DNA of 64,000 nucleotides from Verrucomicrobiaceae bacterium (GTDB taxonomy: Bacteria > Verrucomicrobiota > Verrucomicrobiia > Verrucomicrobiales > Verrucomicrobiaceae): assembly GCA_016795465.1 (NCBI GenBank), contig JAEUHK010000066.1, positions 1-64,000 of the forward strand. The letters run 5' to 3'. A program made the translations under genes and the position numbers. Below are positions 7,926 through 54,146 of this stretch, piece by piece. The first letter of the stretch is position 1. Each line of letters starts with the position of its first letter. The notes under the pieces were generated by a model. The model was not told the origin of the DNA. It ran no database searches and was given only the letters and a program-made list of their open reading frames with translations.

Positions 7926-8795
7926 ATGGGCAAAATTCAATTCGGCTCCGAAGTCTATACCTGGTTCATGCAGGGCACCGGCAAGGGCTACGACAACAAA
8001 CTCGACCACATGATCAAGGTCGCCTCCGAGGCGGGCTTCACCGGCATCGAGCCGATGGTGCTCGAAATCTCCGCCAGCGCCCTCGGCTGCTCCAAATACT
8101 GGCTCGGGCCGCAGATTGACCCGATCCTCATGAAGGACACCCTTCAAAAATACAACATGAAGCTCTGCGGACTTGCCCTCGTCTGCGCTTGGGATGGCGA
8201 CACCGAGGCTCCGAACGAAAAAGAAGCCGCCGACTTCACCATCAACTACCTGAAGCACTTCCCCGGCGCCATGCTTGGCACCGTCACGCTGCCCTCCGGC
8301 CGCACGAAGGATCTGCAAAAGCGCCGTCTGAACGTCGCCAAAAACGTGAACGCCGTGTCCCAGCGTGCGCATGATGCCGGCCTCGTCTGCTCCTACCACC
8401 CGAACTCCCCGCCCGCCTCGCTCGTCCGCACGCAGGAAGACTACGACGTCGTCCTCAGCAGCCTCGACCCGAAGGTCACCGGCTGGACGCCTGATGTGGG
8501 CCACATCATCCGCGGCGGCATGGATGTCATCGCCACGCTCAGCAAGTGGCAGCACCTAATCAACCACATCCATTACAAAGACTACTCCGGCAACGGAGCC
8601 GAGCCTTGGGCTCAGATGGGCACCGGCAAGCTCGACTTCCACAAGATCACCGAGTTCCTCGTGGCCCGGAACTACTCCGGCTGGATCATCTGCGAAGACG
8701 AGGCGCACTGCGCCGTCGATGATCCGGATGGCGTGACCAAGCAGAACGGCGAATGGTGCAAATCGAACCTGCATCCCATCGTCGGCCTCGCTTGA
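7926..8795 (+). CDS. Sugar phosphate isomerase/epimerase-like TIM-barrel protein
   Basis: A 289-residue AP-endonuclease-2/xylose-isomerase-like TIM barrel, of the type found in IolE and related inositol or sugar epimerases. Supporting stretches are FTGIEPM, CSYHPNS, GWTPDVGHIIRGG, INHIHYKDYSG and GWIICEDE. Their His, Asp and Glu residues fit the metal-binding centre. The ATG at 7926 is preferred over upstream in-frame starts because the barrel begins there (KIQFGSEVYTW). A clear terminator follows. The substrate cannot be assigned. Confidence 0.8.
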   Translation: MGKIQFGSEVYTWFMQGTGKGYDNKLDHMIKVASEAGFTGIEPMVLEISASALGCSKYWLGPQIDPILMKDTLQKYNMKLCGLALVCAWDGDTEAPNEKEAADFTINYLKHFPGAMLGTVTLPSGRTKDLQKRRLNVAKNVNAVSQRAHDAGLVCSYHPNSPPASLVRTQEDYDVVLSSLDPKVTGWTPDVGHIIRGGMDVIATLSKWQHLINHIHYKDYSGNGAEPWAQMGTGKLDFHKITEFLVARNYSGWIICEDEAHCAVDDPDGVTKQNGEWCKSNLHPIVGLA

Positions 8796-45892: not shown

Positions 45893-45967
45893 GCGCAGGT
45901 AGCTCAGCGGTAGAGCAGTTGGCTTTTAACCAATTGGTCGAGGGTTCGATCCCCTCCCTGCGCACCA
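45893..45967 (+). tRNA. tRNA-Lys (anticodon TTT)
   Basis: 75 bases with the 3' CCA encoded. Acceptor GCGCAGG / CCTGCGC, D-arm GCTC...GAGC, anticodon stem around loop CTTTTAA (TTT), T-arm GAGGG TTCGATC CCCTC. The 3' end forms the left attachment site of the genomic island. Confidence 0.97.
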
Positions 45968-45968
45968 T
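45938..45968 (+). other. attL: tRNA-Lys 3' end (31 bp)
   Basis: Identical over 31 bases to 54,116-54,146. Core spans the T-arm, acceptor strand and CCA of tRNA-Lys plus one base. Sequences diverge immediately outside (TCC against TTT). Confidence 0.93.
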
Positions 45969-46018
45969 CCTTGTAAATCAAGGGTTTCAGAGCCTGAGAG
46001 GTCAGATTAACCGGCCTT

Positions 46019-46037
46019 TGGGAACATTATGGGAACA
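46019..46037 (+). repeat. Left arm-type integrase site
   Basis: TGGGAACATTATGGGAACA, 19 bases, present exactly once more at 54,011-54,029 just inside the right end. Each copy is two TGGGAACA boxes 11 bases apart, as expected for arm-type sites of a tyrosine integrase. Confidence 0.8.
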
Positions 46038-46129
46038 CATTCCCCGCTTGTGCGTATTGTTCCGCTGTTGTCCGCCTTGGCTGAGGGAAGGCTTGCAAGC
46101 ACAAAGCCAGACGGGTATCCTTCGCCATC

Positions 46130-46372
46130 ATGTCCACCCTGACACTCGATCAAACGACCACCTTCGACAGCCTGCTTTCGGCTGGCGATGTCGTGCAGGT
46201 GATGAAGGACGGGAAGAAGCTGGGCGTGTTCCTCCCGGCGATGCCCAAGCCCCAAGGCGTGCCTCTGCCGGATTTCCGCGCCCGTCTGCGCCAGACTTGG
46301 GGCAGCCGCGTCTTCAGCGAGGCGGAGGTGAAGGCGATGCGCGAGGCGGAGCTTGAACACTGCCACGGCTGA
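46130..46372 (+). CDS. Putative antitoxin of a type II toxin-antitoxin pair
   Basis: An 80-residue protein whose TGA overlaps the ATG of the PIN-domain gene (ATGA-type overlap at 46,370-46,374). The N-terminal half (LTLDQTTTFDSLLSAGDVVQVMKDGKKLGVFLPA) resembles Phd/VapB-type antitoxins. The C-terminus (RARLRQTWGSRVFSEAEVKAMREAELEH) would bind the toxin. The call rests mostly on the coupling to a PIN toxin. Confidence 0.75.
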   Translation: MSTLTLDQTTTFDSLLSAGDVVQVMKDGKKLGVFLPAMPKPQGVPLPDFRARLRQTWGSRVFSEAEVKAMREAELEHCHG

Positions 46373-46827
46373 TGCACTGCGCGGACACCTCCTTTCTGTG
46401 CGCCCTCTACCGCCAGCAGGCGAACTCGGAGCGGGCCATCGCCACGCTGGAGGAAATCGGTGCTCCCATCGTCATTTCTTGCCTGCTGGCCTACGAGTTC
46501 CGGCAGGCGGTGCGCTTTCAGGTGTTCCTGCGGTCCCGTGACGCCAAGAAGGGGTATTCGGAGACGGAGGGCTTGATGATGCTGGCGCAGTTTGAGAACG
46601 ATCTGGAATCCGGCGTGGTCATCGAGTGCGGTGAGAACTGGATGAACGTGGCCGCCGAGGTGGAACGGCTCAGCGAAAAGCACACGATGAAGCGCGGTTC
46701 ACGCTCGTTCGACCTCCTGCACATCGCCACGGCGATCCACTGGCAGGCCACGGCCTTTCTGAGTTTCGATGCGTTGCAGCGCGAAATTGCGGCGGAAGAA
46801 GGCTTGAACGTGCTGCCTGTTCTCTGA
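46372..46827 (+). CDS. PIN-domain ribonuclease toxin (VapC-like)
   Basis: A 151-residue PIN domain with the expected acidic residues: Asp5 (CADTSFL), Glu42 (LLAYEFRQ), Asp114 (SFDLLHIATA) and Asp133 (FLSFDALQ), which bind Mg for RNA cleavage. It is translationally coupled to the upstream antitoxin. On an integrated island the pair could stabilize it against loss, or act in phage defence. Confidence 0.88.
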   Translation: MHCADTSFLCALYRQQANSERAIATLEEIGAPIVISCLLAYEFRQAVRFQVFLRSRDAKKGYSETEGLMMLAQFENDLESGVVIECGENWMNVAAEVERLSEKHTMKRGSRSFDLLHIATAIHWQATAFLSFDALQREIAAEEGLNVLPVL

Positions 46828-46832
46828 GAGCG

Positions 46833-47726
46833 TCAAAGACGCCTGTCCCCGGTTTTCCGCCGTGGCTTGACTTCGCCAGCCTTCTTGCGCCGTGCCCGTT
46901 CCTTGGCCGGGAACTTGCCGCCCACCATCTCTTCGATGGCTCCGGCAGCTTTGAGGATGTGTTCGAGGCTGAATGACGGCAAGGCAGTTCCAGGCTTGAG
47001 GTAGCCGGAGAGATACTTGCTGGACGCGGTGGTGAGCTTGCGGCGCGAGGCGACGAGGTAGGCGACGGCCTCGGCCTCCATCTCGCGTGTGCTCAGGTCT
47101 TCATCGCTTCGGTTATCCCAGAAATCAGTCTCGGTCCGGCCGAGATGTCCGCAGAAAAGGTGGGCGAGTTCATGCGCCAGCGTGGCGAACTGCGCGGGAC
47201 GGTCGTGGCTCTCGTTCAAGAAGATGTCATACTGGCCCGGCGTGCCGTGCTGGACGAAACCGGCTAGATCAACGCGCAAGACGGCCTGCACCACGCGAAT
47301 GCGCATCGCGGCACACAGATCGAGCAACCTTTCCCAAACCACATCCGGGACTTCTCCGGCGGCGTGGAAAGGGTCTTCCAGTTCCGCTTTCACGGCCTCG
47401 GGCAAGGCGTCCCCATAGGTGTCAGCGACATCAAAGACGAAACGCACCGGCCCCATGAATTGCAAGACGACGAGCGGGCGTGCTCCCGGCCTGACTTTGA
47501 GGCCCATTTCCGCCCATTCCCTCGCGGAGGCGATGTAGCGGGCCTTGGGATGCTGGACGTGCAGCAGCATCGCGTTGTAGGGCGCGTAACGCGGCATCCG
47601 GCTGGCGAACTCCATCAACTCCCCCAGCCTCTCAGGCGTGTGGTAGGCCAGGGCGCTTTCGATCAGCTCGTTGACGGCGGATTTGGCCTCCTCGCGCTCT
47701 TTGTCATGCAGGATCAGCATGTTCAA
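46833..47726 (-). CDS. ArdC-N/IrrE-like zinc metallopeptidase
   Basis: A 297-residue protein. The N-terminal third (about 10-105: RYAPYNAMLLHVQHPKARYIASAREWAEMGLKVRPGARPLVVLQFMGPVRFVFDVADTYG) resembles the ssDNA-binding ArdC N-domain of plasmid anti-restriction proteins. The C-terminal half is an ImmA/IrrE (M78) peptidase with FATLAHELAHLFCGH (His185, Glu186, His189) and the downstream Glu in MEAEAVAYLVAS. A basic tail follows (KERARRKKAGEVKPRRKTGDRRL). ArdC-type proteins protect incoming mobile DNA, while ImmA peptidases cleave element repressors; either would suit an island. Confidence 0.78.
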   Translation of the reverse strand: MNMLILHDKEREEAKSAVNELIESALAYHTPERLGELMEFASRMPRYAPYNAMLLHVQHPKARYIASAREWAEMGLKVRPGARPLVVLQFMGPVRFVFDVADTYGDALPEAVKAELEDPFHAAGEVPDVVWERLLDLCAAMRIRVVQAVLRVDLAGFVQHGTPGQYDIFLNESHDRPAQFATLAHELAHLFCGHLGRTETDFWDNRSDEDLSTREMEAEAVAYLVASRRKLTTASSKYLSGYLKPGTALPSFSLEHILKAAGAIEEMVGGKFPAKERARRKKAGEVKPRRKTGDRRL

Positions 47727-47836
47727 ACTGAGCCGATGGGCACATGCTGTGCAACTTAGAACCGAGGCAGAAGGGAGTAGTCGCGATCATCAACAAAGCA
47801 AACTCACGGTAAGGATGCGTATCAATCCTCCATCAC

Positions 47837-49276
47837 TTAATCTGGTTCTGGAAAGCCCACGCTGGCCGGGTTTTTTTCGGCTAAGGCCACGAACGCATCA
47901 TAGTCAAAAGGCTCGTTTTTCTCCGTGTCGAACTCTGTGATCATGATCAACTGCGTTGGAATGCCTCCTCCATTCTGAGTCGGGTGGCTAGACTCGAACG
48001 AATATCCATCTTTGGCCTTTGCGACTTTAGCAACATGCCTCCGCCCTGAGAGTTTCCAGTTTCCCGATTTGACGTAGTAAGGCCCCCGAGACGGCATTCC
48101 GCTCGAATTGAATTCATGAACTGCCATTGAGCGCCCATGCCAAGCCATTCCAACGAGAATGGCTCGTTTGCCGCCTTTTGACACGACCTCAGAACGTATT
48201 TCAGAGTGAATTCGATGACCTGATTGGGGATCATCATGAAGGAGCTGCGAAGGATGCGAATTCAAGTTCCATGCCGCCCATGCTTTGCGCCAAGTTCTTG
48301 CTGGTTTGTTGCTCTTCTTGCGTCCAAACAGCCAGGAGAATAAACCGCCGCTAGTCGGTGTAGCAGTGCCAGGATTTGCCTTTGAATCCTCGGATGTCTC
48401 GATGTCAGCTTTCGCTTCGGCTGAAAATGGTTTGGACGCCGAAACCATCAAGCGTCCATTCTCAAGGTGAAAATATGGCCGCTCTCCGACAGAAATGCCT
48501 TCCATGGCAGCATTCATCTTCTCGGCACTGCGGCGGAGGATCGTCTCTACCCCTTTGGCATACATTTGAATTTGCTGGCCGTCCTCCAACCAAGGGTTTC
48601 GGATCATTGCAATTTCTTCCATCGTCTTACCTTCGAGGGAGGCTTTGACCTCATTGGCGTAAGTTCGAGAGATGGCGATGACTGCCGACTCAATGGCATT
48701 GCTCATTCTCTTGGCATGACGCATCCCAAGAGCATTGCGCACCAGGGTATGGATGATTTTGCGAAACGCTTGATCCTCTTCCCGCTTTCTAGCGGATGTG
48801 GCTTCATTACGCGCTAGCATGTGTTGGTTCAATTCCGCCATGCGCTGGTCTTCCGCTGCAAGACTTGCCGCCTGTTTGAGGCGGAAGTCAGGATCGGTCT
48901 GTTTTGGTTTCGACCGGTCTATCTGCCTGTAGATCGCATTCCAGTCGCTCTTGTATGCGAACAAAATGTCCTTCATTCCAAGATAGCTCCAAAGAGCTGC
49001 CGAATACTTTCGGAATGCGCCATCGGGGCGAATTCCATCCAAAAACTGAGCCAGTTTTTCAGGGGTATTGATTTGAGCAGCCAAAAGATCACCGGCCAAG
49101 CCAAGATATATCCAATACCGAATATCCATTCCGTTTATTAGTTCTGCGGGAAGGTCGATTTGCTGTGTTTTATGTTTTGACCCGCTTCCATCAACCGAGT
49201 CGATTGGCGTGGACGAGACCCCTGTTAGCAAAAGCCTTTTGACGTAAGATGCCAGTTCGCTGTCGGATAAGTTCAT
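47837..49276 (-). CDS. Uncharacterized 479-residue island protein
   Basis: No family is recognised. Residues about 115-230 are mostly charged helix (LNQHMLARNEATSARKREEDQAFRKIIHTLV). A Pro/Gly/Thr-rich linker with GGLFSWLFGRKKSNK follows at about 305-330, a possible membrane-touching hinge. The C-terminal 130 residues look like a compact beta domain (RAILVGMAWHGRSMAVHEFNSSGMPSRG). The start ATG at 49,276 overlaps the stop of the HTH gene (ATGA). GC is clearly lower than in the core genome. As the largest unexplained gene on the island it is the best candidate for accessory cargo such as phage defence. Confidence 0.75.
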   Translation of the reverse strand: MNLSDSELASYVKRLLLTGVSSTPIDSVDGSGSKHKTQQIDLPAELINGMDIRYWIYLGLAGDLLAAQINTPEKLAQFLDGIRPDGAFRKYSAALWSYLGMKDILFAYKSDWNAIYRQIDRSKPKQTDPDFRLKQAASLAAEDQRMAELNQHMLARNEATSARKREEDQAFRKIIHTLVRNALGMRHAKRMSNAIESAVIAISRTYANEVKASLEGKTMEEIAMIRNPWLEDGQQIQMYAKGVETILRRSAEKMNAAMEGISVGERPYFHLENGRLMVSASKPFSAEAKADIETSEDSKANPGTATPTSGGLFSWLFGRKKSNKPARTWRKAWAAWNLNSHPSQLLHDDPQSGHRIHSEIRSEVVSKGGKRAILVGMAWHGRSMAVHEFNSSGMPSRGPYYVKSGNWKLSGRRHVAKVAKAKDGYSFESSHPTQNGGGIPTQLIMITEFDTEKNEPFDYDAFVALAEKNPASVGFPEPD

Positions 49277-49737
49277 GCGTTTCGTGTGTACATGGCCGGG
49301 AAGCGTTCTTTGACGGCTTGGGCGATCTCCTCCGGGGTCGAGGGCTTCACTGTTGGCAGCGTGGCGGGACGATTGGAGTTTTCGAGGTTCAGGCCGAACA
49401 GCTTGATCATGGATTCGAGGCATCTGAGTTGCAGCAGCGTCCCACGATAGCGGTCTGGCAGACTGCCAGCCTCCAAATAGGTAGCTTCCAGCCGCGCTTC
49501 GACCTTCGCACGCATCACGACGAGTTCCTTCTTGGATAGCGGGGCGTTTTGCTCGATGCGAGTCATGCGCCGTGCCAGATAGCGCGAGACTCGGGTGGGG
49601 GAGATGCGGAGCCGTTCGGCAATCTGCACCTGCTTGAAGCCTTCAAGTGAGAGCTTCCAAGCCTGCTCTTCAACCTCAATGCCATGCACACGCTGGCGGC
49701 GTGCGCGGCGAGCTAGTTGGCGAGGCTGATGAAGCAT
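49273..49737 (-). CDS. HTH-containing island protein
   Basis: A 154-residue protein with a helix-turn-helix near the N-terminus (about 30-58: LSLEGFKQVQIAERLRISPTRVSRYLARRM) and a helical C-terminal part. This order (HTH then helical oligomerization region) recalls phage terminase small subunits, but no diagnostic motif is visible, so a regulator is equally likely. It overlaps the next gene by ATGA. Confidence 0.72.
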   Translation of the reverse strand: MLHQPRQLARRARRQRVHGIEVEEQAWKLSLEGFKQVQIAERLRISPTRVSRYLARRMTRIEQNAPLSKKELVVMRAKVEARLEATYLEAGSLPDRYRGTLLQLRCLESMIKLFGLNLENSNRPATLPTVKPSTPEEIAQAVKERFPAMYTRNA

Positions 49738-49839
49738 GGCGTCATTCTTGGTTCAGGCTGGCATCCCGCAAGTCCATTCGTGGCGCAATGAAATCGGAGA
49801 CATGCAGGCAGGTGGCGGGGGCTGTAAGTGCGTCTGCAC

Positions 49840-49986
49840 CTTTGTTTCCAGGGTGCGCGGCACTTTTCGGCTTCGTTTCCGGTTCGTTTCCAAAACAGGG
49901 ATTCGTTTCCAGTTCGTTTCCATCTTGTTTCCGCCGATCACTCTTCGTTTCCCGTTTCCACCTCTAGAGCGGGAAACGGGAAACGA
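49840..49986. other. Candidate replication origin: iterons plus 15-bp hairpin
   Basis: Five direct copies of TTCGTTTCC (49,872; 49,883; 49,902; 49,913; 49,944), with degenerate copies at about 49,840 and 49,925. Spacing of the pairs is 11 bp. The last copy is part of a perfect 15-bp inverted repeat (49,945-49,959 and 49,972-49,986) with a 12-base loop. It lies immediately after the helicase gene's stop, in a 256-base gap with no gene. The hairpin could also act as a terminator. Confidence 0.72.
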
Positions 49987-49993
49987 GATTTCG

Positions 49994-51022
49994 TCATGGG
50001 GTTTCAACGGCTTCATAGTCACGTCCTTTCTTGCGCACGAGTCCTGCACTGATGAGTTTCTTTGTCCACTTGCTGACCGTGCCAGATTTCACGCCGAGCA
50101 TCTCGGCGAGTTCTGACGCACTGCCGATACCATCGCGTATATGGGCCAGCAAAGCGTCGGTGCCGTTATACGACTCGCAGGCGATGGTGATACCCTTTCC
50201 ATCGTCCGAGAGAGTCCAGCGAAGCGGCTGCGCATCCCGTCCTTGGCAGTTTCGGCATTTCGAGAAGCTGGTGACGAACTGTTTGCACCTCGCCCCCTCC
50301 TCACTGGCATCCCTGAGGCTTAGAATCCAGTGGGCCGGGTCTTCCCGCCGGGAGCCTCCGCGCATCTCTCCTCCCCGGCCCGCGTGATGCACGATCATCA
50401 CCGTAATCCCTCGACGGCGGAGACTCAGGAGCCAGTCCTTAATCTTGTCGAAGTCGTCATTTTCATTCTCCCTCATGCCATTCTGGCTCGTGCTCAGATT
50501 GTCGATCACAAACATGGAGCCGTCTGGTAGCATCTGAGACAGTCCGGCCTGATGGGCAGGGTTTGCAATGTTCACACTGATGGCTTGCTCCATGTAGAGA
50601 TGCTCATTGCTCAACCATTTGAAGTTTGGAGACAGGATGCCGATCCTTCGAGCGCGGTCTTGCACGTCGGGCAGGTTCATCTCAGCATCGAAGTAGAAGA
50701 CGGGGCGTGAATCTTCTCCATTGTCCCATGCGCCGAGTTTGCAGCCCTCCGCAACCGCATTGCCTATGAGCATGGCGAGCCAGGTCTTGCCATGACCACG
50801 AGGAGCAAACAAATAGCCTAGATCACCTTCGCGGAGCCATGCGCCCAGGAGTCGGCGGCGTGGTGTCATCTCCTTGCTTGCCAAGGTATCGGCCGCCAGC
50901 AGCGAACGAGCAAAGTCAGGTGGTTGCTGGACTGCGCCGCTGGTCCCTGCTTGCGGCTGGGTGCTCGGCTTGAAGGCAGGCCGCTGTTTGAGTGAGGCGG
51001 TTAAATCATCGGTGGCGTTCAT
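49994..51022 (-). CDS. RepA-like RecA-fold replicative helicase
   Basis: A 342-residue ATPase with Walker A (APRGHGKTW, residues 73-81), Walker B (SMFVIDNLS), and the HHAGRGGEMRGGSRRED motif typical of RepA/AAA_25 hexameric helicases of mobile elements. A C-terminal winged helix (about 295-335: IGSASELAEMLGVKSGTVSKWTKKLISAGLVRKKG) should bind DNA, perhaps the adjacent iterons. The start overlaps the primase stop by ATGA, so the two are coupled as a replication module. Confidence 0.88.
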   Translation of the reverse strand: MNATDDLTASLKQRPAFKPSTQPQAGTSGAVQQPPDFARSLLAADTLASKEMTPRRRLLGAWLREGDLGYLFAPRGHGKTWLAMLIGNAVAEGCKLGAWDNGEDSRPVFYFDAEMNLPDVQDRARRIGILSPNFKWLSNEHLYMEQAISVNIANPAHQAGLSQMLPDGSMFVIDNLSTSQNGMRENENDDFDKIKDWLLSLRRRGITVMIVHHAGRGGEMRGGSRREDPAHWILSLRDASEEGARCKQFVTSFSKCRNCQGRDAQPLRWTLSDDGKGITIACESYNGTDALLAHIRDGIGSASELAEMLGVKSGTVSKWTKKLISAGLVRKKGRDYEAVETP

Positions 51023-51981
51023 TGGAAAAGCGAGTTGAGGGTTTCGAGATGCGATTCAGGCGCGGCGACGACCTCGCCCAGGTCTTTGAATCCATTGGGT
51101 AGCGCGAAGGCATCCACCCTCGCGCCAGCGCCCTCCAAGTCTGCCAGCCATGAGGCAGCGGCGTTCAACCCGGCCTCGTCGGCATCGGGCACAATTCGGA
51201 CGTGACGACCTGCCAGGCGTGCCAGCAAGCCGGGATCACGGGCAAAGCGTGAACTGGCGCTGGTGGCGGCCAGGATGCTCCACGTTTCCTCCACATTGAC
51301 CAAGGTGAAGGCAGCGAGGGCTTCGACGAGGCCGATAGCACCCTCGACAAGCAAGACGTGGCTGGTAGCGCCAAGCCAGCTTTGGCCGATGAATGCGCCT
51401 TCGCTGCTGGGGAGATTCTTGGCCTTGATCGTGGTGCCATCGGCTCGGGTGAAGGGTTGACCATCGAGACGGCGTGCCTGCGCAAAGGTGCCCTCTTGGA
51501 TGATGCAGCAACGATGGCCCTCCACCTCTGCGCCTTTCAGGAATCCCCAGCGGTGAGCAAGATCAACGGCATCCGGCAGGATGCGGCGCAGGGTGGCGAT
51601 GGCGATGATCCCCGCAGGCTTGAGCGCGTGGAACTCCGGCCACGCTTTGCGCTGGCGGGCCTTCCTTTCGGACTCGCTTTCAAAGTCGGGCGCTGTGGAA
51701 TCCCGCCACGGCGGAGCATCCTCGCCAAGCAGATAGCCGGGCGGCTTGCCAGACGATGCGGCGGCACTGCGGAGCTTGTGGCGGAGTTCGGATTCCGTCC
51801 AAGGGGGCAGGCATCCTTGGTTCCAAGAGGCGAGCAATGGGAATGCCTCCTCCTGACTGAGATTGAAGCCTTTGATGAGCGCCACTGCGGCGGCGAAGGC
51901 GGCGGCATGGCCTCCTTGACCGGACACAGACACGGGCATCCTCGCCAGATAAGCGCTGGCACGCTCTAAAGTGGATTGCAT
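51019..51981 (-). CDS. Primase-like protein with PriCT and Toprim domains
   Basis: About 320 residues. The N-terminus (ASAYLARMPVSVSGQGGHAAAFAAAVALIKGFNLSQEEAFPLLASWNQGCLPPWTESELRHKLRSA) is the helical domain found in phage and plasmid primases before the catalytic part. The C-terminal half has Toprim features: VLLVEGAIGLVEAL (Glu) and VRIVPDADEAGLNAAASW (DxD). It would make primers for island replication. The ATG at 51,981 was chosen because the conserved domain begins there; the frame stays open further upstream without conservation. Confidence 0.83.
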   Translation of the reverse strand: MQSTLERASAYLARMPVSVSGQGGHAAAFAAAVALIKGFNLSQEEAFPLLASWNQGCLPPWTESELRHKLRSAAASSGKPPGYLLGEDAPPWRDSTAPDFESESERKARQRKAWPEFHALKPAGIIAIATLRRILPDAVDLAHRWGFLKGAEVEGHRCCIIQEGTFAQARRLDGQPFTRADGTTIKAKNLPSSEGAFIGQSWLGATSHVLLVEGAIGLVEALAAFTLVNVEETWSILAATSASSRFARDPGLLARLAGRHVRIVPDADEAGLNAAASWLADLEGAGARVDAFALPNGFKDLGEVVAAPESHLETLNSLFQ

Positions 51982-52082
51982 GGAGTGAGATGAAAGGTTG
52001 AAACCCGCCTCCGGCACTGGTATCCCTGTCCCCACATACACAAAACGCGGGGTCGTGGCGGAAGCTGCGGCCTCGTTTTTGT

Positions 52083-52313
52083 TTAGTCGGCGAGTGAGTT
52101 CAGGTAGGCGCGGATGCTTTCGAGGTCGAAGAGGCGGCGGCCTCGCGTGTTGCCTCGTTTGCGAACGCTGATGGAGCGGATTCGACCTTCTTCGACTAGC
52201 TCGTAGAGACTGCTGCGGCTGATGTTGAAGAGGGCACGGCAGGTGCGGTGGTCGCCGAACTCGGGCTTTGAAATGACTTCGGCAGATTGGGCGATTTGGA
52301 AGGATGCGGACAT
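52083..52313 (-). CDS. AlpA/excisionase-type HTH protein
   Basis: A 76-residue DNA-binding protein with an excisionase-like winged helix: CRALFNISRSSLYELVEEGRIRSISVRKRGNTRGRRLFDLESIRAYLNSL. In islands with tyrosine integrases such proteins control excision (Xis) or activate integrase. ATG at 52,313. It lies between the primase and integrase genes. Confidence 0.82.
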   Translation of the reverse strand: MSASFQIAQSAEVISKPEFGDHRTCRALFNISRSSLYELVEEGRIRSISVRKRGNTRGRRLFDLESIRAYLNSLAD

Positions 52314-52692
52314 GGTATTGCGTGAATTTGAGGCTGCGGGTGTCCTGATCGTGCATGGACGATCAGGGGCGGTGGGGTGCGGCTCCTGAGCAGGCATGGT
52401 GTGGTCCCCATGCTGTCACTGGTGCTCGCGTCGCTAGGACTGGGCGATGTCTTGGATGACCAAGCATCGGGAGTCCCGGCATTTGACCCGGAAGTCTCGC
52501 CGTGTGACCGGGGAGAGGCGGAATCGGTGGCTCCTCGCCTTCTCGGTCCGCGTTATGGTGCACGCTAAAACATCGAAAACTTGGCCTGAACCCTTCTGGC
52601 GATATGCTCGGGCCAGGAAGGTCAGCCCCATGACTGGGTAAGATTTCCGACAGTCAAACACAATTTGGAAAATCGGCGCAAAGCCGTGGACA
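52314..52692. other. Intergenic region within the island
   Basis: 379 bases between the HTH and integrase genes. Several short frames are open but none has a recognisable motif; a minus-strand frame ending near 52,434 contains a lone CRDSRC pair that is too little to call. No repeats or RNA gene seen. Confidence 0.4.
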
Positions 52693-54009
52693 TCACTGGG
52701 CCTTTTTTCGCTGGAGCGAGGGCACTGCATCGACGGCGCGGCGGAGAGCTGTCAGCTCGGCATGGGTGTATCCGGCATTGGTCTTTGCATCGACATGGCC
52801 GACAAGCTTCATGCGTGTCTCCTGCGAGATGCCGCCGTTGAACATGGAAGAGTTGAAGGTGTGTCGCAGGCTATGGAAGGAGCGCGAATGCGCGGAACGG
52901 CCCGCTTTGCCTTCGACGTGTTCGCGTTTCTGGCCGCGTGAAACGCCTGCGGCCTCCATGATGCGGGTGAATCGTGCGGAGAGGCCGTTGTTTCCCGCGA
53001 TGCTGACACGCGCCAGCGTTGGGAATACCGGGGCCGCTAGATCGGCAGGAAGGTCTTTGCCCTCGAAGTAGCGCACCAGCTCGGCGTGCATGGGCAGCGT
53101 GATCACGGCCTTTTCCCCTTCCTTGGCGCGTTTCTTCCGGCTCGTTTTCTGCGGAAGGAAGCGCATGACTTTGTCCTGCGTGTCGATGCTGCCCCGCGTG
53201 ATGCGTGCGGCGTCTCCCAAGCGCATCCCGCCAAACGCGCCAAGGAGGATGACACCGCGCCAGTCTTCGGAAGGTGACTTGGCGAGGAGCTTGGAGACCT
53301 CGGCGAAGGTGAACGGCTCGCGGCTGGTGGAGTCTTCCTCGGGCAGATCGTCCAGATTGTCTGCCGGTGAGCGGGTAATGTGTCCTTCCGCCACGGCAGC
53401 CAGGAGGGCGCTGTTCACGTCCTTGATGTAATGATTGGAGGTCTTGGCGGTGCGGCCCTCCGCGTTGAGCTTGTCGCGAAACTCGCGGAGCTTGCCAATG
53501 GTGAGGGAATCGAGCGGTAAGGCGGCCTGCTCCTCGCCCAAGTGCGTGAGGATGGCCTTAATGCTGGCCTTGTAGCGTGCCTGCGTGGCGGGCTTCGTCG
53601 TGCCTTCCTTTTGCTTGAGCCATTCGCCAAACCAGCCTGCGATGGTCTTTTCTGCGGGCAGTGTCTCGCCCGTGCTGGCCTCCACCAGCCTGCGGATGAA
53701 GTCGCGCCCCAGATTGGCCGTGAGGCGCTTTTGCGCGGCCTTGTCCGCTGCCTCGCGGAGAATGGCGAGGATACGCTGGGAGCCGTCCTCCCCCGCGCCA
53801 GCTTGTTTGAAGGCGTTCTGCTCAAACTCCAAGGCCACCTTGAGCGCCTCCTGCCGGGCTTTTTCCTGCTCTCGCAGTGTTTGGGGAATCGGCACTTTCG
53901 TGACCTGCTTTACGAGCTTCCAGCCCTTGTTGCCTTGGGCATCCGTGGTGGGCAGACGGAAGGCTGCATAGTAGAACAAAGAACCGGGGCGGGTGAAGAC
54001 GCTAGCCAT
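52693..54009 (-). CDS. Tyrosine recombinase/integrase of the island
   Basis: A 438-residue integrase. N-terminal arm-binding and core-binding domains (about 1-225) precede the catalytic domain with all active-site residues: Arg263 (FGGMRLGD), Lys288 (PQKTSRKK), His379 and Arg382 (FHSLRHTF), His405 (LVGHVDAKT) and nucleophile Tyr414 (NAGYTH). It starts at the ATG at 54,009, one base from the right arm-type site (54,011-54,029), which overlaps a possible -10 box (CATAAT), so integrase probably represses its own promoter. Target: tRNA-Lys 3' end. Confidence 0.95.
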   Translation of the reverse strand: MASVFTRPGSLFYYAAFRLPTTDAQGNKGWKLVKQVTKVPIPQTLREQEKARQEALKVALEFEQNAFKQAGAGEDGSQRILAILREAADKAAQKRLTANLGRDFIRRLVEASTGETLPAEKTIAGWFGEWLKQKEGTTKPATQARYKASIKAILTHLGEEQAALPLDSLTIGKLREFRDKLNAEGRTAKTSNHYIKDVNSALLAAVAEGHITRSPADNLDDLPEEDSTSREPFTFAEVSKLLAKSPSEDWRGVILLGAFGGMRLGDAARITRGSIDTQDKVMRFLPQKTSRKKRAKEGEKAVITLPMHAELVRYFEGKDLPADLAAPVFPTLARVSIAGNNGLSARFTRIMEAAGVSRGQKREHVEGKAGRSAHSRSFHSLRHTFNSSMFNGGISQETRMKLVGHVDAKTNAGYTHAELTALRRAVDAVPSLQRKKAQ

Positions 54010-54010
54010 G

Positions 54011-54029
54011 TGGGAACATTATGGGAACA
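54011..54029 (+). repeat. Right arm-type integrase site
   Basis: Exact copy of the left 19-base arm site. Two further TGGGAACA boxes lie between it and attR: inverted at 54,047-54,054 and direct at 54,078-54,085. Confidence 0.8.
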
Positions 54030-54115
54030 TCCGAGCTTGTCCACCGTGTTCCCACAAAGTTCTCTCTCCTAGTGAAATGGGAACAAATTAGCTAAATACA
54101 CCGGGGTGTATCGAA

Positions 54116-54146
54116 TCGAGGGTTCGATCCCCTCCCTGCGCACCAT
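54116..54146 (+). other. attR: 31-bp copy of the tRNA-Lys 3' end
   Basis: Exact repeat of 45,938-45,968 without the rest of the tRNA, 27 bases from the stop of the convergent transglutaminase-like gene. Confidence 0.93.

Follow-up and report, generated by a model that had tools for sequence, protein, structure and literature searches.

The DNA analysed here, hereafter the window, is the first 64,000 nucleotides of contig JAEUHK010000066.1 of a Verrucomicrobiaceae bacterium (assembly GCA_016795465.1), and carries, seated in its tRNA-Lys gene, an element of 8,178 bp (between repeat starts) with nine genes, all of them open. We consider with high confidence that this element is an integrative replicon of the int-xis-pri-rep-ori type and, judging from its gene order and its relatives, that it is probably an intact and mobile phage satellite resembling phage-inducible chromosomal islands (PICIs). 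A first-pass annotation of the window had proposed a self-replicating integrative island or satellite, a view which is well supported and can be sharpened to the PICI order int-alpA-pri-rep-ori. To it we add the recurrence of putative arm-type sites, a GGAAAC array conserved across the class, nine bounded relatives, and four loci with genes resembling terS (small terminase subunit).

Boundaries, replication module and cargo of the tRNA-Lys element

The element is bounded by the exact 31-bp repeat of the tRNA-Lys 3' end that the first-pass annotation had reported, attL preserving the 3' end of tRNA-Lys(TTT) intact (Table 1). An exact 31-mer repeated within 9 kb is far beyond chance. An arm-type motif, GGGAACATTATGGGAACA, is found at both inner ends, where a 19-bp repeat contains paired GGGAACA units, and two more GGGAACA lie close to attR, at 54047 (minus strand) and 54079 (plus strand). 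We read the 19-bp repeats as putative arm-type integrase sites, which appear to change together with the integrase. The motif recurs with the window-type integrase in other species and, with at most two differences, adjoins tRNA-Lys or the integrase gene in genomes G045, G023, G059, G025, G042, and G067. In G134, which belongs to another family, a 43%-identical integrase is located at tRNA-Lys with a 48-bp repeat and paired GTAACA motifs at the equivalent place.

Read from the right end, the element consists of int, an AlpA-like helix-turn-helix (HTH) gene, primase, helicase, an iteron and palindrome array, an HTH protein, an unknown protein of 479 aa, a metallopeptidase, and the PIN toxin with its antitoxin; all genes from int to the metallopeptidase are on the minus strand and the toxin-antitoxin pair, at the far end, is on the plus strand. 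The complete tyrosine integrase, AlpA-like HTH, iterons, and toxin-antitoxin pair of the first-pass annotation were all recovered, and its gene list is completed here by the metallopeptidase gene, the HTH gene at 49273-49737, and the paired 19-bp repeats. When the protein families of the nine element proteins were sought in Pfam, PHROGs, and NCBIfam, there was no match to capsid, terminase, relaxase, or conjugation families, and none to PHROG head or packaging families beyond one at 0.07, which bears out the earlier statement that these 8.2 kb are free of capsid and conjugation genes.

Of the primase-helicase pair described earlier, the helicase matches AAA_25 (7e-21), and its sole sequence match in PDB is RepA of RSF1010 (1g8y, E 1e-3). 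The primase gene, which overlaps rep by 4 nt (ATGA), has a weak match of its own and is supported by its homologue family and by a CHC2/Toprim primase in the equivalent slot of a relative. The helicase gene is bordered on its 3' side by a palindrome, GTTTCCxGTTTCC-CTA-centre-GGAAACxGGAAAC, and beyond it by direct repeats of the GGAAAC unit; in all, the first 400 bp past this gene contain 10 GGAAAC/GTTTCC hexamers, versus 0.12 expected from the surrounding DNA. E. coli PICIs have been drawn with an AT-rich region separating two sets of iterons; in the window, no such region is evident.

The array is conserved 3' of helicase homologues across the class Verrucomicrobiae, far beyond the genus. No hexamer is more enriched than GGAAAC in the 400 bp downstream of the helicase at 33 loci (188 copies versus about 6 in shuffled sequence); at 22 of these loci it occurs at least four times, and pairwise spacings have a period of about 10.8 bp, suggestive of helical phasing (vector length 0.49 over 211 distances, which are not independent of each other). 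Other units, GGCAAC and TGCAAC, are found at some loci. For example, the helicases of loci L030 and L031 are 83% identical and their iteron units differ (GGAAAC and GGCAAC, respectively), as do their predicted recognition helices (KPKGTVSKWA against RHKGTVSKWA). In this pair, the iteron unit and the predicted recognition helix vary in concert. The most natural interpretation is that the helicase uses its C-terminal winged helix as an origin-binding initiator. The difference in iteron unit immediately downstream of these two helicase genes would amount to a natural specificity switch.

Integrase orthologues are 77-85% identical in G045, G059, and G023 (same genus) and about 53-55% identical in G062 and G067. 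The latter, of another genus, has this integrase lineage and the arm motif at tRNA-Lys, and G062 has the lineage at tRNA-Lys with different replication genes (a Toprim/CHC2 primase and another helicase). A small gene overlapping int, as in the phage-inducible chromosomal minimalist islands (PICMIs), is present in G062 (L151) and, on reading of the sequence, absent from the window. Two long stretches with this type of integrase were also observed: an island of about 67 kb at tRNA-Lys in G067, with the arm motif (C1:4591037-4659591; L166-L168 and L152), and about 66 kb from tRNA-Lys to a window-type integrase in G059 (C5:248438-314676; L150 and L163-L165), holding type I restriction-modification-like genes and an apparent embedded Mu-like prophage. 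The G059 island, in which large terminase, portal, and head protease genes are present, was considered as a prophage or helper using the window-type integrase and rejected: a Mu-type transposase adjoins the phage genes, so that an inserted Mu-like prophage is likelier.

Regarding cargo, the putative antitoxin is kept with the PIN gene, whose start it overlaps, in G045, G050, G022, G023, and G042. The M78/ArdC_N-like protein, a putative antirestriction or derepression cargo, has a 75%-identical homologue in the G045 island. The large unknown gene noted earlier is present and without a family, with its start corrected to 49276 if the ATGA overlap with the preceding gene holds; among the 68 family genomes its product has only a weak partial match, in G025, and its AlphaFold model (pLDDT 39) is too poor for a structure search. 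The HTH protein P0005, whose model (pLDDT 51) is likewise too poor to search, was considered as a TerS and rejected, as profile comparison with the TerS of relatives shows no relation and its homologues stand alone elsewhere; it matches PHROG_509 at 0.07.

Table 1. Features of the tRNA-Lys element (window positions) and bounded relatives of its helicase (sizes, with positions where available)
Feature	Position or size	Strand	Basis or remark
tRNA-Lys(TTT)	45893..45967	+	ARAGORN; integration target of the host
attL	45938..45968		31-bp core TCGAGGGTTCGATCCCCTCCCTGCGCACCAT; exact direct repeat of tRNA-Lys 3' end
Left arm-type site (putative)	46019..46037		TGGGAACATTATGGGAACA; paired GGGAACA, spaced 11 bp; all 19 bp repeated exactly at 54011
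Putative antitoxin, 80 aa	46130..46372	+	No family match; overlaps PIN gene start
PIN-domain toxin (VapC-like)	46372..46827	+	Pfam PIN 3e-9
M78/IrrE-type metallopeptidase	46833..47720	-	Peptidase_M78 5.5e-8; ArdC_N 6e-4 (sub-threshold)
Unknown cargo protein, 479 aa	47837..49276	-	No family match
HTH protein (P0005), 154 aa	49273..49737	-	Weak HTH matches; occupies TerS position of four relatives
Putative replication origin	49844..49986		Palindrome and phased GGAAAC iterons
Palindrome	49945-49986	-	TCGTTTCCCGTTTCCcgCTCTAGAGgtGGAAACGGGAAACGA, read on minus strand
rep, RSF1010-RepA-like hexameric helicase with C-terminal winged helix, putative initiator	49994..51022	-	AAA_25 7e-21; HTH_27 8e-6
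pri, Toprim-type primase	51019..51981	-	Toprim_2 1.3e-3 (below cut-off); homologue alignment
AlpA/Xis-like HTH	52083..52313	-	HTH_17 1.6e-6; excisionase-family domain 1.5e-3 (below cut-off)
Tyrosine integrase, 438 aa, intact	52693..54009	-	Phage_integrase 3e-12; phrog_1 3e-40
Right arm-type site (putative)	54011..54029		TGGGAACATTATGGGAACA; 19-bp repeat
attR	54116..54146		31-bp core TCGAGGGTTCGATCCCCTCCCTGCGCACCAT; exact direct repeat, 31/31 identical to attL
tRNA-Met element	4.9 kb		56-bp repeats; rep-ori module beside distant integrase
tRNA-Ser element	6.0 kb		70-bp repeat
tRNA-Cys element	7.2 kb
tRNA-Arg elements	5.1 and 5.4 kb
tRNA-Gly element	9.2 kb
tRNA-Thr element	L214:596-15145, 14.5 kb		Repeat of 5' end, not 3' end, of tRNA
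tRNA-Lys element in G134	C1:293796-313831 (L215, L233), ~20 kb		48-bp repeat

Relatives at the same site and across the class

Comparison of tRNA-Lys sites in other Verrucomicrobiota, which the first-pass annotation had put forward as a check, revealed a sister island at the same site in G045 (8,123 bp, with its own exact 37-bp repeat). This island retains the toxin-antitoxin pair, the M78 protein, the helicase (83% identity), and the integrase (78%), its primase being only 31% identical and thus exchanged, and a gene with an LPD37 (polyvalent-protein) domain and a putative secreted protein take the place of the unknown and HTH genes. As the sister shares only part of the cargo, exchange appears to be continuing. 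An unoccupied site, also put forward earlier, was found in syntenic form in G027, where an SPFH gene and tRNA-Lys are directly followed by the right-hand host region; it is not the exact pre-insertion allele, however, since the transglutaminase-like neighbour gene is missing as well. Finally, two genomes retain the toxin-antitoxin pair alone. In G050, the closest relative (94% identity on the left flank and about 90% on the right), only this pair is left beside tRNA-Lys and attR is gone (L065:1985-2997), and in G022 the pair, about 0.9 kb with a frameshifted PIN gene, lies between two att copies (L099:3043-3992). These two cases suggest that the pair outlasts the rest of the island, resisting loss after the remaining DNA has been deleted. 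Together, the unoccupied syntenic site, the same-site sister, and the toxin-antitoxin-only relics support mobility.

A helicase profile was searched against the 68 family genomes and a class-wide sample of other families, and bounded elements were sought as tRNA-end repeats around each locus; open reading frames (ORFs) of relatives were called greedily, spurious antisense ORFs included, and evidence was drawn only from those backed by a family match or a homologue. The helicase was found in 17 of the 68 family genomes (including G033, of the same genus) as well as in 14 genomes that belong to other families of this class; outside the class, there were only weak matches to much larger proteins. 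The earlier expectation of few described relatives holds for the searchable literature and not for genomes. Nine relatives, the G045 sister included, are bounded by exact tRNA repeats and span 4.9-20 kb. Integrases and primases are exchanged between these elements, the helicase-iteron pair being their common core, and the rep-ori module is, as far as its genomic contexts indicate, mobile by itself.

TerS-like genes are located directly 3' of the iterons at four helicase loci, three of them inside bounded elements: the 5.1-kb tRNA-Arg element (Terminase_2, 1.5e-9), the 9.2-kb tRNA-Gly element (phrog_57, 1e-6), and the 20-kb tRNA-Lys element of G134 (phrog_51, 2.6e-5), which also holds the helicase-iteron module and defence-like genes (a restriction enzyme and an AAA ATPase). 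The fourth is in G072 (phrog_51, 1e-9), in an element for which no boundaries were found. That a 5-kb element should carry a TerS but no head genes points to packaging by a helper.

Primase-helicase modules, some with AlpA, were also observed with no integrase nearby (L019:7661-10580, L020:7830-11750, L021:7521-10410, and L022:7900-11000), with GTTTCC/GGAAAC palindromes on both flanks. Such modules lie beside shared host genes in G033, G047, and probably G034, and may represent either a domesticated replicon or another way of life that does without an integrase. Short hairpins recur downstream of the L020 helicase (~8100-8700), together with a gene resembling REP-associated tyrosine transposases.

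Satellite, mobilizable element or relic

In PICIs, int, alpA, pri, and rep are followed by an iteron origin immediately 3' of rep and sometimes by terS, all in one direction in Gram-negative hosts; their size of about 15 kb is typical, not obligatory, and some of them, such as EcCICFT073, have no terS and use phage cos sites (PMC6092414). The element resembles the Gram-negative PICIs EcCICFT073 and PmCI172 (PMC6092414) as an att-bounded chromosomal island without structural genes, with the int-alpA-pri-rep order in one direction from int, an iteron array immediately 3' of rep, terS in only some members, and accessory genes at the distal end. It differs from them in its size (8.2 kb against about 15 kb, relatives ranging from 4.9 to 20 kb), its separate RepA-like helicase with a C-terminal winged helix, its class-specific GGAAAC palindrome and iteron array, the lack of a recognised terS in the window copy, and its phylum. 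PICMIs of Vibrionaceae are similarly very small, with int, alpA, and a primase and no capsid genes, but adjoin fis and have DUF3987/DUF5906-type primases, instead of tRNA-Lys and a Toprim and RepA-like pair (PMC10803314). With the IncQ plasmid RSF1010 the element shares a hexameric RepA-type helicase, a partner primase, and iteron and palindrome DNA, but it has no RepC, its DNA-binding domain is fused to the helicase, its primase is of the Toprim type, and it is integrative. P4-like satellites also combine int, an AlpA-type regulator, Toprim primase and helicase functions, and an iteron origin; unlike them, the element has no psu/sid/delta-type capsid genes, and its primase and helicase are separate genes.

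We favour a satellite over a mobilizable element or a relic because of the TerS of relatives, the PICI order, and the existence of terS-less PICIs that use cos sites; the TerS-like genes make satellite status likely for the window copy as well as for its relatives. AlpA would act as excisionase or switch, and the integrase would excise a circle, on which the winged helix of the helicase would bind the GGAAAC iterons and open the palindrome region, the Toprim protein priming replication. The amplified circle would leave in helper phage particles, as in PICI satellites, and the toxin-antitoxin pair would stabilise the integrated state. In relatives with the same rep-ori, TerS could redirect packaging, whereas the window copy would depend either on a site of the cos/pac type or on a protein that escaped recognition. 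For this copy, packaging is something we infer, since it lacks a recognisable TerS and we found no helper.

Several observations weigh against a satellite. Besides the lack of a recognisable TerS in the element (P0005 being unrelated by profile comparison), the window's genome has no match to Pfam Terminase_2 and no phrog_2 large terminase, so that a resident prophage of that type is not seen as a helper, though a helper may also come from outside. Genes for capsid remodelling or interference were likewise not recognised, and a small mobilizable element lacking a relaxase would present a similar picture. No close relative was found among phages, plasmids, IMG/VR, INPHARED, and PLSDB, and no packaged copy was seen (IMG/VR scans used short exact patterns, by which relatives can be missed). 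Finally, the estimated contamination of the assembly is 7.5%.

The element might instead be mobilised in trans by conjugation, as an integrative and mobilizable element (IME) or through an origin of transfer (oriT) only, with RSF1010-type replication and a cryptic oriT used by another element. Its helicase resembles RSF1010 RepA, it has no virion gene, the G045 island carries an LPD37 gene, and ArdC_N-like/M78 cargo and PIN toxin-antitoxin pairs are common on plasmids. However, no helicase relative and no close integrase relative were found in 72,556 plasmids, and relatives have TerS instead of mobilisation genes; as no relaxase family is matched, the element also stands apart from relaxase-bearing IMEs (iMOB), as it does from integrative and conjugative elements by its 8.2 kb, nine genes, and lack of any conjugation family match. 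We therefore regard trans-mobilisation as rather unlikely. Immobility is less probable still: an element that had once been mobile and was now a fixed integration relic, maintained by its toxin-antitoxin pair, would fit the remnants in G050 and G022 and the modules of rep and pri that several genomes carry with no integrase close by, but here the nine genes are open, the att cores identical, the arm sites intact, and the iterons complete, and the partly different cargo of the G045 sister implies ongoing exchange. A defective prophage having lost its structural genes is very improbable, even if integrase, primase, helicase, and HTH genes are found in prophages too and relatives carry TerS, because independent deletions would not converge on int-alpA-pri-rep-ori, and the same compact set of genes, flanked by intact att repeats, is found again in many genera, in combination with different integrases and at different tRNAs. 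In addition, the pattern scan of IMG/VR returned no helicase relative, and the phage search returned one weak match only.

A possible satellite family of Verrucomicrobiota

There is perhaps an even chance that the phage satellite proposed here belongs to a class-wide Verrucomicrobiota lineage, in which a RepA-type helicase with a fused winged helix recognises a co-evolving GGAAAC-type origin. Its members would swap integrases, target tRNAs, and packaging genes, and the single rep-ori cassette would be the stable core of such a lineage. Among open PMC papers, we found no described phage satellite from Verrucomicrobiota. The helicase profile and the GGAAAC iterons provide a sequence handle to find such islands across the class, and the family points to hosts to screen for helper phages. 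Genetic tools being few in this phylum, the small pri-rep-ori cassette might also be of use as a replicon. More generally, these elements bear on the question of how common satellites are among tRNA islands that lack obvious transfer genes.

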